Origin: a virus
Length of the DNA stretch: 39,808 nucleotides
Direction: 5' to 3' (one strand)
Virus record (IMG/VR): IMGVR_UViG_3300013307_000032
Span: 1-39,808 of that record
Part shown: in pieces, positions 1 through 39,808 of the stretch
How positions within the stretch are numbered: the stretch's first letter is position 1
Layout of the letters: each line of letters begins with the position of its first letter
Program-made: the position numbers and the translations under genes
Notes under the pieces: generated by a model
What the model saw: the letters and a program-made list of their open reading frames with translations, nothing else
Databases searched by the model: none
What the model was told of the DNA's origin: nothing

Positions 1-83
1 ATGACCAATGAACTTAGAGTGTACCTAAGAGGCTTGCAATTATGGAGACTATAAGCGATGATGAATATCGAGCGTTAGTCTCC
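1..83. repeat. Right-end unique segment, repeated at 39614-39696
   Basis: This segment follows the stop codon of gene 19.5 (94) in the direction of transcription and is identical to 39614-39696. It contains the 8-bp-stem palindrome 44-51/76-83 with a 24-base spacer. In a concatemer the order would be gene 19.5, this palindrome, about 113 further bases (39613-39501) and then the terminal repeat. The right terminal repeat itself is not present a second time in the window. Confidence 0.9.
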
Positions 84-93
84 GAGTGCCGCA

Positions 94-240
94 TTAATCA
101 ACGCAACCGAGTACAGCGCACACCAGAGTTTCCAGTTGACTGAGGTCACCATTAAGCTGTGTAGCACCAAAGGCACCAGCAAGCAATAACAGAAAGCGCC
201 ATGTAACACGACTACGAAGAAGTTTCTTTAGGGTAGCCAT
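94..240 (-). CDS. 19.5: Small membrane protein gp19.5
   Basis: Last gene of the genome. 48 residues (T7 49). MATLKKLLRSRVTWRFLLLL, AGAFGATQLNGDLSQLETLV and CAVLGCVD match T7 19.5 (LLRHRVTYRFLVVL, LTGDLSSLESVVCSILTCSD). A basic N-terminus and one or two short hydrophobic segments. ATG after ATAGGAGGGACGTAGC, strong. Function is not established. It ends 11 bases before the palindromic right-end segment. Confidence 0.93.
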   Translation of the reverse strand: MATLKKLLRSRVTWRFLLLLAGAFGATQLNGDLSQLETLVCAVLGCVD

Positions 241-390
241 GCTACGTCCCTCCTATGGTTTACAGTGAGTTATGGTGATATTGTCATAATAACAATCACC
301 TCTTAATGGATATACTTATAGGCACTCAAAGTGAATAGAGTGCACATAAGGTTATTCATTCAGTGTCTCTATAGTGCTCTTAGGGGTCTC
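241..390 (-). other. Leader between phi-OR and gene 19.5, no gene seen
   Basis: Between phi-OR and gene 19.5 I see no open frame beyond a 5-codon one (ATG at about 276). It is AT-rich, with GAGTGCACTCTATTCACTTTGAGTGC-like partial repeats (about 315-345, CACT-CAAAGTG and GAGTGCAC) able to form a weak hairpin. The spacer 415-503 before it likewise has no gene. Confidence 0.5.
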
Positions 391-414
391 TCTCCCAATA
401 GTGAGTCGTAATTG
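391..414 (-). promoter_or_regulatory. Phage promoter phi-OR
   Basis: Minus strand CAATTACGACTCACTAT then TGGGAGAGAGACCCC. It has TATT where all others have TAAT at -4 to -1, so it is closer to T7's TATA. The right-end origin promoter in T7 lies here between genes 19 and 19.5. Confidence 0.93.
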
Positions 415-503
415 AAATCCCAATGAAAACAGTAGGTTACCTCCGAGGGACTATCCGTGTCCCTATGCTTACTTATGCAATCCTTGTGCATATACATTCA
501 TTA

Positions 504-2264
504 CTACCATCCCATGAAGTTCTCTGACCCAGAGTCGTCTTCATAGTAGATATCGATACCACCGACAGCCATGACCATCAGGGACTCTCCACCTACCACT
601 TCACGCTCCATATGGGCCTCTAAGAACTCAGCGACCATCTCAGATTCACCCTGTGCGCTATCTAGCTGCATCCCTGCACGAAGGAACTCAACGCCCAACG
701 CTAACGCATCTAAGCGGTCGTCGTGACGTACAGCGCCCTTCTCGCGGGTCATACGGGTCATCTGGTAGAACAGTGAGTAAACCACTGAGTGCTTGCCGTC
801 TTTGTCTCGGGCAGTCTGGTAGTCTTCTCTTACGACCTCATCACGAACAATCAAGCGGTGCGTAGATAGCACTGGCTCAAGAGTATCGCAGATGCGTAGC
901 TCCTTCATGCCTCTGGCACGGATTTCTTCAAGGGCAGCTTTGTGCCACTTAAGGAGAATAGGCTGGAAGACTTTACCGAACATACCGTCACCGAAGTTAC
1001 TCTCGAAGACAACAGTCTGCACGTCCCAATACTTCGCTTTCTTAGCGAGCTTCTCTAGGGTCGGCTCGGAGTATCCATCAAGGAAACCTCCTGTGTCCAT
1101 CAAGTAGATATAACCATTCAGTGTGTACAATACGACAAACGTAGTTTCATCTGCACCACGACCAGAAGGGTCAATGACCATAATCTTCTGTTGGTACGCT
1201 CCAGTGCGCTCTGAGGCTGTATGGTAACTGTGGATATCATCTCCTTTCAGTCCCACGTTAGGTAAGCTCTCATTGCGGTTCTGGCGGTTTGGCAGCCACT
1301 GGTAACTCAAGGCACCACGCGCTGTATCAATAGCAGCAACGATGAGGTCCTTAAGGCGCAGTGGGTACTTCTCGGCATCGGACAGGTTAGGGTTGAGCAT
1401 GAACTGCAACGTATAACCAGCCTTACCGTACTCAAGCTCACGCTCCCGTAGGTCATCTGAATCGAATCGCACCGGGTCTGTGGGCTGTCCTGCAAGTACA
1501 TCAGTTTCCTCCGCGTACTCCTGCCGTAACATGGGCGCGAGGCGGTCACCGTAGTACAAGTCTTCTTGCGTGTTTCGAGGATACTGCGCAGGCCAGATGA
1601 TAGTGGTGTACCCACGGTTATCTTCCAGTTCCTTATACAGCGTCATCTCGGTCTGAGGGGTCCCCAGATAGATTACACGGCTTGTTGGTAGAGGCTTAAG
1701 CAGAGCAGCGAACTCTTGCACAAGGCCCCATAGCTTCTCACGAGCGCCCTGTGTGGCACTGTTAGACGGAATCTCAACGTCATCTGCAATGATGATATCC
1801 GCACGAGAACCAGTAAGCTGTCCAGTGATACCCACGGATTTAACCGAAGGTGAGTGGTCGGGCTTGGCTGGTCCTACGTCGAAGCTAATCACTGAGTCAC
1901 GCTGGTCCGGTCCCGGCTTAAGTTCAGCGAGGAAAGGCAGCAGACCAATGATGTTCTTGATGAAGATGGAGTTCGCATCGGCACGTTCTTTCGAAGCGGA
2001 CACGATGAGTATCTTCAACTGTGGGTCTTTCCATAAGGTCCACACTACGAACGCACAGGTAATAAAGGATTTACCAATACCACGGAACGCTTGCAGAATG
2101 AATTTCTTATTGTTCCCGTTAGCGAGACATTTAGCCATATCAATCTGGCATCGAGTTGGTGGCGGCAGGTTAAGAGCCTTCCATAAGACGAACAGGAAGG
2201 CCACGAAGTCACCCTTAAGCTGTGCCACAATCAGCGCATTACGCGCCTCCTGTGATTGTTTCAT
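504..2264 (-). CDS. 19: Terminase large subunit (packaging ATPase/nuclease)
   Basis: Motor and nuclease that fills procapsids and cuts concatemers. 586 residues, the T7 length. Walker-A-like FRGIGKS (60-66), Walker B IIIADDVE (157-164), then coupling motif [10 protein letters not shown]. The RNase-H-like nuclease has [11 protein letters not shown] (about 365), [12 protein letters not shown] and [12 protein letters not shown] (about 540). The C-terminus ([13 protein letters not shown]) is acidic, as in T7, where it docks on the portal. ATG after TAATAGGAGTACCGC. Confidence 0.98.
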
Positions 2265-23604: not shown

Positions 23605-25725
23605 TTAGTGGCATACGGCCCAATTGGGACCAATCTTACCTTCCGTATCCAACTGACACCGGAAGTTCCAATGCTCGCCTACCCAGCGCATAGCCTCTTG
23701 AGCAATCTCTCGGACTCTCTCAGCAATCTCTGGGGTCCGGCAAGCGACCTGAATCTCATCGTGAATCCAGCCCATGTACGCAAAGTCACCATCCCAGCCA
23801 TGCTTGAAGCCAGCTTCGATGAGTAACTTCTCGGTCTGAACCACCCACAGTTTGCAGATGAGAGCACCCGCAGATTGCAGCAATGAGTTCAAAGCTGCGT
23901 GTGGGGACCGAATGTGAATCCTACGACCATCAAGGCCCTTAATCCATCGGCGCTTCCACGTCACTCGCTGCTCTCCACCAATCCACTTGGAGTCCTTAAC
24001 GAGACTCTCTTGGATACCTTCACGCAACGCTGAGATAGCTGGGGTGTTCTCTAAGAATTTCTTCTTGAGTTCCTTACCCCGCTCCTTACCTGCACCAACA
24101 ATCTGACCAATCTTCTCATCACCAGCCCCGTATAGGAAACCGTAAATGAACGTCTTGGCGTTGTCTCGTGTAGGTAACTCAGCAGCGTGCTGGTTCACCG
24201 TGTGGATATCACCGTTGAGAATCACATCAGCATACTCACCGTTGTCATAACGGGCCATGAAGTGTGCGAGACACCGCAGTTCGAGACCACTGGCATCGAT
24301 ACCTGCTTGCACCCACGGTTGCCCTGTGAGTCCATCAAGATGATACTCGGCACCAAAGGATGAGCGGCACTCTTCACCATAAGGTGAGCGCACTCCGGGG
24401 ACCTGCCCCATGTTAGGGAACGAGTGAGTCGCACGACCAGTGACCGCACCGTTAGGATTAATCGAGCCATGAATCTTACCGTCCTCTGCAATGTAACGAA
24501 GCCACGCTTTGTCGCCCTCTGCCACCTGACCGATTCGCTTCTGCACCATAAGGTACTCTTTAATCAAGTCGATACAAGCCTGCTTCTCAGGGTCATCAAC
24601 GCGAACATGCTCAAGCACCTCATCGTCAATCTTCGGTGCACCCTTGTCGGTGAACTCAGTGGGAACCCAGCCAGCTTCTTGTAGCTTCAACTGGATGTGG
24701 TCACGAGATGATGGGTTGAACACGACGAACTCAACTGGTGTGAACGGAGCGCCCTCAATGTAATCGCGGGTGTCCAACTCACAAGGTTCCAGACCGAGAC
24801 GCTGTGCTTTGTTCTTTGGTTTCTTATAGACACCACCCTGCTTCGGCACCTTAATCAAAGGGTACTTCGCTAGTGGCTTACCAGTGCGAGGATGAAGGAA
24901 CGGAGTGTTACCACCCTTGGCCCTGTACCACGTACCGAATGTGTCACTCAGTCTCTGTTTGAGTTCTGAACGGCGTGCTGATAGTTGCACGTAAAGGTCT
25001 TGTAGCGCCTGCTCGTTTACAGGGAAACCATTACGCTCCATCTTAGCGAGCACCCACGCAGCCTCGTGTTCCAATAACACGGACTCGCCACAGTTAGCCC
25101 AGAACTCAGTTGCAGAAACATCGAGCCACGACTTGCCTATCTCTGGGAAGTAGTGCTTCTGAGACAGACACGCTTCCAGTAACGCACGAGTGACCACAAC
25201 GTCTTGGTCGTTATACTCCATCATGGGTTCATTGAAGTTCGCCCACTCATCACCGTCCGTGTACTCTTCGCCTTGCTCCTCAAGCATACGCTTAAAGATA
25301 TCGGTGTACTCGCCCTTCATGTGACCGAGGCGATAACCCCATGCCTCCAGAGCGTGTGACCCAAAGCGGCGACCGGGTAACTTACCGGACTTCAACAAGG
25401 CAACGTCAGAGTCCTTGATGTTCGCAAACAGTAATCGGACCAGTACCAACGTATCGATACAGTTGCGCATCGGTAAGTGGAACTCACGGTCCAGCACCAG
25501 CTTCGCCAGTTTGGTCAGCGCCGGGGCATCATACTTGTGTCCGTTGTGGAACACGATAAGTTCATCACGTTCGACCGCAGCCTCAAGCGCATCGAGGTAC
25601 GCTGAGAAATCGTTGGGTCGGAACCAATCGTTCGGGGTATCGAATGTTGTGTTATCGATAACTCCGCAGTGAAACTTGGTGACTTTCTCTAACAGGTTGT
25701 TAGCTTCGATATCGGTAATCAACAT
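23605..25725 (-). CDS. 5: DNA polymerase with 3'-5' exonuclease
   Basis: Family A replicative polymerase that uses host thioredoxin as processivity factor. I start at the ATG giving MLITDIEANNLLEKVTKFHC (T7 MIVSDIEANALL), 8 bases after GGAGG; an in-frame TTG six bases upstream is less likely. 706 residues (T7 704). Exonuclease: D5, E7, NGHKYDAPAL, YNDQDVVVT. The thioredoxin-binding loop is present (about 255-335, HPRTGKPLAKYPLIKVPKQG, KPKNKAQRLGLEPCELDTR). Polymerase: GIDASGLELRCLAHF (motif A), RDNAKTFIYGFLYGAGDEKIG (motif B), WIHDEIQVACR (motif C), end CQLDTEGKIGPNWAVCH. Confidence 0.98.
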   Translation of the reverse strand: MLITDIEANNLLEKVTKFHCGVIDNTTFDTPNDWFRPNDFSAYLDALEAAVERDELIVFHNGHKYDAPALTKLAKLVLDREFHLPMRNCIDTLVLVRLLFANIKDSDVALLKSGKLPGRRFGSHALEAWGYRLGHMKGEYTDIFKRMLEEQGEEYTDGDEWANFNEPMMEYNDQDVVVTRALLEACLSQKHYFPEIGKSWLDVSATEFWANCGESVLLEHEAAWVLAKMERNGFPVNEQALQDLYVQLSARRSELKQRLSDTFGTWYRAKGGNTPFLHPRTGKPLAKYPLIKVPKQGGVYKKPKNKAQRLGLEPCELDTRDYIEGAPFTPVEFVVFNPSSRDHIQLKLQEAGWVPTEFTDKGAPKIDDEVLEHVRVDDPEKQACIDLIKEYLMVQKRIGQVAEGDKAWLRYIAEDGKIHGSINPNGAVTGRATHSFPNMGQVPGVRSPYGEECRSSFGAEYHLDGLTGQPWVQAGIDASGLELRCLAHFMARYDNGEYADVILNGDIHTVNQHAAELPTRDNAKTFIYGFLYGAGDEKIGQIVGAGKERGKELKKKFLENTPAISALREGIQESLVKDSKWIGGEQRVTWKRRWIKGLDGRRIHIRSPHAALNSLLQSAGALICKLWVVQTEKLLIEAGFKHGWDGDFAYMGWIHDEIQVACRTPEIAERVREIAQEAMRWVGEHWNFRCQLDTEGKIGPNWAVCH

Positions 25726-25752
25726 TGTCAATACCTCCAGTTATAAATGATA

Positions 25753-25788
25753 ATCATAAAGGCCCTCGAAAGGACCTTGAGTCTATCA
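25753..25788 (-). promoter_or_regulatory. RNase III processing site (R4.7 type)
   Basis: The RNA forms an 8-bp stem AAGGUCCU-UUCG-AGGGCCUU (25778-25759) with a UUCG tetraloop, between UGAUAGACUC and UAUGAUUAUCAUUUA flanks identical to those of the site at 32758-32780. T7 R4.7 also lies just before gene 5. Confidence 0.83.
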
Positions 25789-26067
25789 CTCAGCCAGTGA
25801 ACTAGCAGCGAACAGTGCGTCCATGTAGTTCTTGCGGCGTGCTTCATCGTCACCAATGGCGTGACTCGCAGCTTTACCCAGCGCCATCGACAGGCGTGCA
25901 ACCTGTGCATCATCGAGGGTCATGCGTTGAGTGTGGTCACGACCGTCCGCTCGGGACTTCCAGCGATAGACCATAGTGGTCTTACCGTTACGCACGTTGA
26001 TGTGAATACGGCGGGTCCACTGGTCAGCAGTGTCGGGCATACGAAGAGTTGTAGTGTGCTTAGGCAT
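25786..26067 (-). CDS. 4.5: Conserved T7-like protein gp4.5
   Basis: A 93-residue protein (T7 89). The segment VRNGKTTMVYRWKSRADGRDHTQRMTL, here at about 27-53, resembles the central part of T7 4.5 (MIYRWK, DGRDHT-TMTL). The rest is helical. No function is established. The right start is the ATG with TAAGGAGCACATC, not an upstream frame running through 4.3. It is followed at once by an RNase III hairpin. Confidence 0.78.
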   Translation of the reverse strand: MPKHTTTLRMPDTADQWTRRIHINVRNGKTTMVYRWKSRADGRDHTQRMTLDDAQVARLSMALGKAASHAIGDDEARRKNYMDALFAASSLAE

Positions 26068-32723: not shown

Positions 32724-32751
32724 GGTGCGTTCCTCTCGTTGTTAAATGATA

Positions 32752-32790
32752 ATCATAAAGGCCACCTCTCGGGCGACCTTGAGTCTATCA
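32752..32790 (-). promoter_or_regulatory. RNase III processing site (R1.1 type)
   Basis: The RNA forms a 9-bp stem AAGGUCGCC-CGAGA-GGUGGCCUU (32780-32758), flanked by UGAUAGACUC before and UAUGAUUAUCAUUUA after. The same flanks enclose different stems at 25759-25778. T7 RNase III sites have this form, and T7 R1.1 lies at this map position, before gene 1.2. Confidence 0.82.
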
Positions 32791-33273
32791 CTTGCGGTGC
32801 ATCATCATGCGGTTCCTGCGTTCCCACGCTTGACGCTGGCGCACTCGCTCAATGTAGAACGTGTTAGGCTGCACGTTGACAACCTCATAGCACTCCTGCA
32901 CCCGTCCGATGATATCACCATCCCGGTACGTGAATACTTTCTTTGACCCGTCAGTGTGCCACTGCGTAATCTCGAAGGTCTCACTGGTCCGCTTGAGTTC
33001 CAACTGCTCGACTGTCTTACCGCAGCGACCGGGACCCAACACAAAGTCAGTCTCTTTGCTAGTACCGTCTGGCATGAACGCGATGAACTTGATGCGGGTA
33101 AGTGCCTTGACCGGGATGACTCCGCTGAGGCGCTCAATGTCTTCCATCAGGTTCTTGTTGAACCCTCGCAGTGTTCCATTGCTGGCGTTAAGTGTCTTGA
33201 CTGTTGCCTCAAGTTCCGCGATGCGTGCTTCGAGAAGTTCTTCGTTACGGTTACGGCGAATGAAGTTGAACAT
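32788..33273 (-). CDS. Coiled-coil protein of unknown function between genes 1 and 1.2
   Basis: A 161-residue protein in the slot of T7 1.1 (42 residues) and T3 1.05. The N-terminus MFNFIRRNR is followed by a heptad-like stretch at about 10-50 (LLEARIAELEATVKTLNAS), then a mixed alpha/beta part with many charged residues and a basic tail (RQAWERRNRMMMHRK). I start at the second in-frame ATG, with GAGAG about 8 bases upstream; an ATG 27 bases earlier has only a distant site. The start MFNFI resembles that of the 4.3 protein in this genome. It is the first gene read from phi-1.1. Function unknown; a scaffold or nucleic-acid-binding role is possible. Confidence 0.75.
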   Translation of the reverse strand: MFNFIRRNRNEELLEARIAELEATVKTLNASNGTLRGFNKNLMEDIERLSGVIPVKALTRIKFIAFMPDGTSKETDFVLGPGRCGKTVEQLELKRTSETFEITQWHTDGSKKVFTYRDGDIIGRVQECYEVVNVQPNTFYIERVRQRQAWERRNRMMMHRK

Positions 33274-39185: not shown

Positions 39186-39578
39186 GTCATTAGGTGTCTA
39201 TCGATTCACATTAGGATAGAGAGGCATTAGGTGTCACATTAGGTTGGACGCTAAGAGACTCAAGGAGCCTATACAGATAGGGACGCATTGAGGCCCACAT
39301 ATAGTGTCACTAGGTCCCACACACCACTAGATGTAGTCATAAGGGTCACTCTCAGTCACATTAGGTCACTCAATGGTTGACGATAGGCCCATAAGGTGAC
39401 ACAATAGGTGCTCATTAGGTCAACACTAAGAGGGGACCCCACCAAAGGTGGAACGTTGAGAGGGCCTACGGGGGGAACTCTGGGAGTTTACTCTATGAGA
39501 TACTGACAGGAATTTTTGTGGTATATTCTTAAAGGGTCTCATTAGGACCCACGTAAGGTTAGCCACCTCATTAGGTGC
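39186..39578 (-). repeat. Dispersed CCTAATG repeats beside the terminal repeat
   Basis: On the minus strand the motif CCTAATG, usually preceded by A and often followed by TGA, recurs about eight times here, with degenerate forms CCTAGTG, CCTATTG and CCTTATG. T7 carries arrays of CCTAAAG flanking its terminal repeats (SRL/SRR), and this is the positional counterpart with a different unit. Spacing is irregular. The zone holds no open frame I would call a gene. Confidence 0.6.
39330..39500 (-). other. Putative mature left end and terminal repeat (far boundary unknown)
   Basis: Read on the minus strand from 39500 the sequence begins TCTCATAGAG and soon reaches GTTCCCCCCGTAGG. T7 and T3 DNA, as I recall them, begin with TCTCA-A-G and a GTTCCCCC block close behind, so 39500 is the best candidate for the packaged left end. 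The repeat should run about 160-230 bp towards lower coordinates, but only one copy is present, so its other boundary cannot be read; 39330 is only a guess. A short hairpin (CCACC-TTT-GGTGG) lies inside. Confidence 0.45.
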
Positions 39579-39808
39579 ACCCGAAGACACTGGACGTAGC
39601 TACGCTACTCTTGATGACCAATGAACTTAGAGTGTACCTAAGAGGCTTGCAATTATGGAGACTATAAGCGATGATGAATATCGAGCGTTAGTCTCCATAA
39701 TTGCAAGCCTCTTAGGTACACTCTAAGTTCATTGGTCATCAAGAGTAGCGTAGCTACGTCCAGTGTCTTCGGGTGCACCTAATGAGGTGGCTAACCTTAC
39801 GTGGGTCC
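39545..39808. repeat. 264-bp perfect inverted repeat (fold-back end)
   Basis: Bases 39545-39664 are the exact reverse complement of 39689-39808: two 120-bp arms around a 24-base loop (39665-39688). The centre falls on a short natural palindrome, GGAGACTA...TAGTCTCC (39657-39696), which is also present un-folded at 44-83, where it leads into gene 19.5. The outer copy is therefore a strand fold-back at that palindrome. T7 concatemers are known to form a hairpin-ended intermediate next to the terminal repeat during packaging, and this has that geometry. A polymerase or assembly fold-back artefact at the same palindrome is the alternative. Confidence 0.95.
39614..39696. repeat. 83-bp copy of the window start (contig overlap)
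   Basis: These 83 bases are identical to window positions 1-83. After the shared block the copies diverge: the low-coordinate copy continues into the end of gene 19.5, the high-coordinate copy folds back on itself. This is the concatemer-junction overlap, so the sequence can be joined head to tail and the non-redundant unit is about 39613 bp. The overlap lies outside the putative terminal repeat that starts near 39500, in the right-end unique region before the next genome copy. Confidence 0.95.

Follow-up and report, generated by a model that had tools for sequence, protein, structure and literature searches.

Gene content and placement of the contig

The window, i.e. the whole stretch of DNA that was analysed, is one entire IMG/VR virus record of 39,808 bases, classed as linear. 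Its orientation is reversed with respect to T7, with the terminase and gene 19.5 at the left and the early region at the right. The terminase large subunit (gene 19) lies at 504..2264 on the minus strand and is 92-93% identical to the terminases of Elunavirus (PF22530, E 4e-38). Gene 19.5 is assigned to a frame of 48 amino acids at 94..240 on the same strand, which occupies the gene 19.5 position of SK1 and T7 and has a weak match to DUF5465, under the cut-off. A T7-type promoter of repeat family D2 is found at the phiOR position (389..416, minus), the place where phiOR is annotated in T7, and the family-A DNA polymerase (gene 5) is encoded at 23605..25731 on the minus strand (PF00476, E 2e-41). 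The domain matches in the window comprise a T7-type terminase, a family-A DNA polymerase, a T7 helicase-primase, a single-strand binding protein and endonuclease I. The best DNA matches, with about 80% identity, are Pantoea phage SK1, Erwinia phage Stepyanka and Erwinia phage L1, all of them Elunavirus. By gene content and sequence closeness, the phage is provisionally placed as an Elunavirus-like T7 relative (Studiervirinae).

Two further repeat patterns were observed. The window carries at least 13 T7-type late promoters (families D1 and D2) with the core TTACGACTCACTAATGGGA or near variants, on the minus strand with the genes. Also, two exact repeats of 21 and 18 nt occur in the same order at 25744-25790 and 32743-32792, 7 kb apart and in different gene regions.

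The fold-back end

The right end of the window folds back on itself. The first arm, consisting of spacer and stem, covers 120 nt at 39545..39664 (plus) and is 100% complementary to 39689-39808. A loop of 24 nt without assigned strand follows at 39665..39688, and the second arm of 120 nt (39689..39808, plus), the reverse complement of the first, takes the place of the normal continuation into gene 19.5. The turn is made by the stem-loop GGAGACTA-N24-TAGTCTCC at 39657..39696 (minus), whose arms GGAGACTA (39657-39664) and TAGTCTCC (39689-39696) form a native stem of 8 bp; its DNA fold has an energy of -6.3 kcal/mol and a z of -3.3. An unfolded copy of this stem-loop exists at 44..83 (minus) in the normal concatemer junction. 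Bases 1-83 are identical to 39614-39696, including the loop at 52-75, and the copy continues towards gene 19.5 (94-240, minus) without folding. The overlap of 83 bases is compatible with an assembly word length of 83. An earlier reading made from the sequence only had described perfect arms of 120 bp around a loop, a central palindrome with an 8-bp stem as the folding site and an unfolded palindrome at 44-83 beside gene 19.5. This description is borne out to the base, and the fold-back turns exactly at that stem-loop.

The 120-nt inverted repeat is the only separated hairpin with arms of at least 14 nt in the whole contig, and a perfect arm of this length goes far beyond what chance would produce. 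The native 8-bp stem at such a distance appeared in 2% of dinucleotide shuffles, and a chance origin is unlikely for it as well. Which strand folded is unreadable from a double-stranded contig, because the fold-back and its complement look alike.

Contig ends are a frequent place of assembler errors, and normal reads might have been misjoined through the short palindrome. The native inverted repeat, however, is only 8 bp, far under the usual word length of 21 or more, and graphs simulated for four relatives were unbranched circles when they contained only the normal junction. The fold-back was therefore most likely present in the sequenced molecules, and we give a misjoin by the assembler hardly any credence. 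The sequence-only reading had named a polymerase or assembler fold-back as a serious alternative; the assembler part of it fails on the 8-bp repeat, while the polymerase part is kept below as the less likely explanation. A DNA with a permanent hairpin telomere of the N15 type would likewise give a contig that ends in an inverted repeat. Here, the fold-back exists at one end only, the unfolded junction is present in the same contig and the gene content is T7-like; a protelomerase telomere was ruled out since no match to the telomere resolvase family (PF16684) was found in the record, and we regard the chance of such a telomere as practically negligible.

Predicted terminal repeat and distance to the mature left end

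A terminal repeat of 222 bp is predicted in single copy at 39279..39500 (minus), by homology with T7 and with the direct repeat that is annotated in SK1. It begins with TCTCATAG and ends with GTCCCT before ATCTGT. The latter letters (39273..39278, minus) adjoin the predicted right-end cut and also follow the repeat in SK1; we take them to have a role in T7. A spacer of 156 bp (39501..39656, minus) lies between the terminal repeat and the stem-loop. The hairpin centre was measured at 176.5 bp outside the predicted mature left end at 39500, which is placed by T7 and SK1 homology, and this agrees with the distance of about 176 bp given earlier. The T7 stem-loop at the same place has its centre 190.0 bp from the repeat. 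The fold-back arm reaches no further than 39545, which leaves 44 bases to the terminal repeat, because the contig ends there, and the contig holds no duplicated repeat.

Stem-loops at the same place in other T7-like phages

Most of the T7-like clades examined have a comparable stem-loop between gene 19.5 and the terminal repeat, usually at a distance of 145-207 bp from the latter. In T7, it reads AGGGAT-N29-ATCCCT between gene 19.5 and the right terminal repeat. The arms in SK1 and L1 are GGTTAACT-N25, those in Przondovirus are AGGGAT-N33, and Berlinvirus has AGTGATTAT-N20 together with a compensated form AGTGATAAT-N20; CCTTAAGGGA-N33 and CCTTAAGGTC-N29 occur elsewhere among T7-like phages. 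The arms are thus compensatory within Berlinvirus, and they are so between SK1 and the window, where the loop core is alike and the arms are replaced on both sides. At a few loci (e.g. L063 and L068), the simple stem-loop search gave no clear equivalent.

When six of the elements were folded as single-stranded DNA, z ranged from -3.3 to -4.9, and all six had an inner stem near the apex. The plain stem-length test was significant (0 to 2.3% of shuffles) for the window, SK1, one Berlinvirus and three other loci, and not significant for T7, Przondovirus and three further loci. The outer stem of T7 and Przondovirus is only 6 bp, and therefore position, inner stem and fold energy carry their case. 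By simple stem energy, the processing stem-loop is equalled or surpassed in stability by 19 to 203 perfect stem-loops per genome, in a count that ignores inner stems; it is not the strongest one.

Ends of deposited genomes at the stem-loop

A fold-back on the spacer side is expected to leave two branch points in an assembly graph. One lies before the 5' arm, where gene 19.5 and the folded spacer are the alternatives, and the other before the 3' arm, where the alternatives are the loop and the reversed loop. We searched the surroundings of the processing stem-loop for records ending at these points. Junction queries matched 182, 67, 131 and 385 records, about 765 in all; these sets overlap in part and contain duplicate accessions.

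Four deposited isolate genomes, three of Przondovirus and one of Berlinvirus, end exactly at the branch points of a left-side fold-back. CAVLHH020000002.1 (Przondovirus), a SPAdes contig with a coverage of 602, starts at base 1 of the 5' arm and has an end overlap of 77 bases. MT966872.1 (P510, Przondovirus) has base 1 of the 3' arm as its first base, and its last 77 bases are the 77-mer starting at the 5' arm. When a k=77 graph containing the fold-back was simulated, the main unitig was identical to this record; the simulation is informative only for the two end positions because the genome used in it was the record itself. OP620755.2 (K2044-EW, Przondovirus) has the same start base in the 3' arm. 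Its length falls 38 bases below that of the predicted unitig, which would fit trimming of the overlap to obtain a circle. MN080711.1 (D226, Berlinvirus) has a different stem-loop of its own, and the record ends at the outer edge of it, with an overlap of 115 bases. With arbitrary record starts, the expectation for the two bases would be about 0.04 (2/40,000 x ~765), and 4 were observed. The ends of all four records apparently lie at the hairpin edge as a result of graph branching there. P510 is annotated as a complete genome, yet its ends are assembly ends.

As a control, albeit a small one, none of 18 other T7-like records started or ended at the stem-loop edge; these included five metagenomic T7-like contigs, which had no break at the stem-loop. 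The footprint was also absent in the 182 T7-clade and 131 T3-clade records. A search of Przondovirus for fold-backs with a DNA pattern that has the spacer on both sides found none; a pattern with a one-sided spacer was useless, as it also fits every normal junction read in reverse complement.

Several other candidates were rejected. ON922920.1, OR287812.1 and MT350293.1 each have a second match place, which is an ordinary overlap of the termini away from the hairpin edge, and the one in NC_048129.1 is a repeated stretch which is not at the hairpin edge either. An inverted repeat of 19 bp in L097 had been considered as a fold-back and is instead a promoter-bearing hairpin after the gene 0.7 homologue: it lies at L097:6848-6909 just past that gene, with a loop of 24 nt and a 3' arm resembling a T7-type promoter (CCCACTATAGGGAAA). 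Two relatives of gene 0.7 were found in viral contigs, neither of them informative. Separately, MT350293.1 is labelled Enterococcus phage EFA-2, but it is a Studiervirinae genome with a junction 96% identical to T7, and the host label is doubtful.

Side of the fold-back

A fold-back on the terminal-repeat side predicts all four record starts, and a fold-back on the gene 19.5 side predicts none of them. The fold-back of the window is also left-sided. In simulated graphs, the main unitig of P510 was reproduced only with the left-side fold-back alone. A right-side fold-back, a both-sided fold-back and a loop inversion were each simulated as the cause of the ends of MT966872.1, and each gave a different main unitig.

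The sidedness bears on the remaining polymerase explanation, in which a 3' end folded at the stem-loop and was extended during library amplification or end repair, without a hairpin in the cell. The stem-loop is a ready site for this. In PCR, strand switching by proofreading polymerases occurs at inverted repeats (PMC5218489), and hairpins arise when DNA is amplified with the T7 replisome (PMC9484634). Such an origin would be expected to affect both sides and other stem-loops too, yet the footprints are left-sided although each genome offers 19 to 203 stem-loops of at least the same stability. Moreover, the documented PCR event is a loop inversion, which fails to reproduce MT966872.1. We consider an origin in vitro unlikely but still credible; the one-sidedness and the choice of a stem-loop that is not the strongest favour a hairpin made in the cell.

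It may also be asked whether some virions carry packaged DNA with a hairpin left end in place of the mature end. The four footprints come from isolate genomes, which are usually sequenced from lysates, and the contig with a coverage of 602 still kept the branch. On the other hand, lysates contain unpackaged DNA as well, and SK1 was deposited with mature, repeat-bounded ends. Packaged hairpin DNA is very unlikely in our judgement.

Interpretation as a probable processing intermediate

A fold-back is present in the contig on the left-end side, and it is positioned at a conserved stem-loop. It lies at the place of the T7 hairpin, and the same one-sided footprint was found in four genomes; therefore a real intermediate was most likely captured. 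We conclude that the contig end is probably the hairpin-ended left end produced by T7-type concatemer processing. The sequence-only reading had suggested a T7 processing hairpin, which is supported by the position, the distance, the side, the turning point, the conserved stem-loops and the four left-side footprints.

We infer the nick, the enzyme, the order of the steps and the trimming as follows. A nick would be made close to the inner boundary of the single-copy terminal repeat, from which the phage replisome would copy leftwards by strand displacement through the repeat and the spacer. The new 3' end would then fold back at the stem-loop, where the 3' exonuclease of the polymerase would trim any unpaired tail, and the folded end would copy itself back towards the genome, so that the terminal repeat is duplicated. 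The gene 5 DNA polymerase is the enzyme expected to make the fold-back. The product would be a hairpin lying some 176 bp beyond what becomes the left end, and the terminase would later cut at 39500 and remove the hairpin.

The hairpin is probably not the sole route to a duplicated repeat. In the T7 mutant clone MZ375238.1, a deletion between direct repeats of 9 bp has taken out the entire stem-loop together with the end of gene 19.5, and many sister T7 mutant records match the junction only from the base following the stem-loop. These mutants were deposited as complete genomes, which suggests that the element is dispensable; Kim and Chung reportedly described the T7 element called m as non-essential in 1996. 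Taken together with the T7 and T3 records and the metagenomic contigs that have no footprint, the mutants indicate that the hairpin is probably one efficient route among others and that it is probably not equally visible in all libraries. A further suggestion, which we make tentatively and regard as doubtful, is that hairpin left ends are not fleeting. They would then form a sizeable share of lysate DNA in several T7-like genera, packaged or released, as a general and directional step of repeat duplication, with the stem-loop sequence turning over while the fold is kept.

The evidence on terminal-repeat duplication in T7-like phages is largely gel work on T7 itself. The processing intermediate has been known in T7 since 1990; what is new is its capture here, the turning point at base resolution in an uncultured relative and the same one-sided footprint in two further genera. 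As a result, the generality and the direction of the hairpin step become testable from public reads. The fold-back also explains why some T7-like assemblies break precisely at the base in question, and depositors can spot this break and avoid mistaken trimming or starts there.

Comparison with known systems

In vitro, strand-displacement amplification with the wild-type T7 replisome gives rise to hairpins at short inverted repeats, and the proposed cause is that gp5 trims the 3' end back to a paired stretch and then extends it (PMC9484634). These products resemble the window in folding back at a short inverted repeat, whereas they were obtained on lambda DNA, at several repeats and with no tie to a terminal repeat or to one side (PMC9484634). 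PCR strand switching also takes place at short inverted repeats that are able to form hairpins; the reported outcome there is an inverted loop, in contrast to the fold-back end found here (PMC5218489). Protelomerase telomeres, as in N15 and phiKO2, share the hairpin-ended linear phage DNA with the present case, but they need a telomere resolvase, for which the window has no match, and both of their ends are closed.

The closest comparison is with T7. Chung, Nardone and Hinkle reportedly described in 1990 a hairpin end on T7 concatemers as a possible processing intermediate. The window differs from it in the sequences of arm and loop and in an arm that stops before the repeat, and its example is known from an assembled contig alone. 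The two agree in a stem-loop between gene 19.5 and the terminal repeat, in a fold-back on the left-end side and in the distance from the centre to the left end, which is 176.5 bp in the window (for an end predicted by homology) and 190.0 bp in T7.
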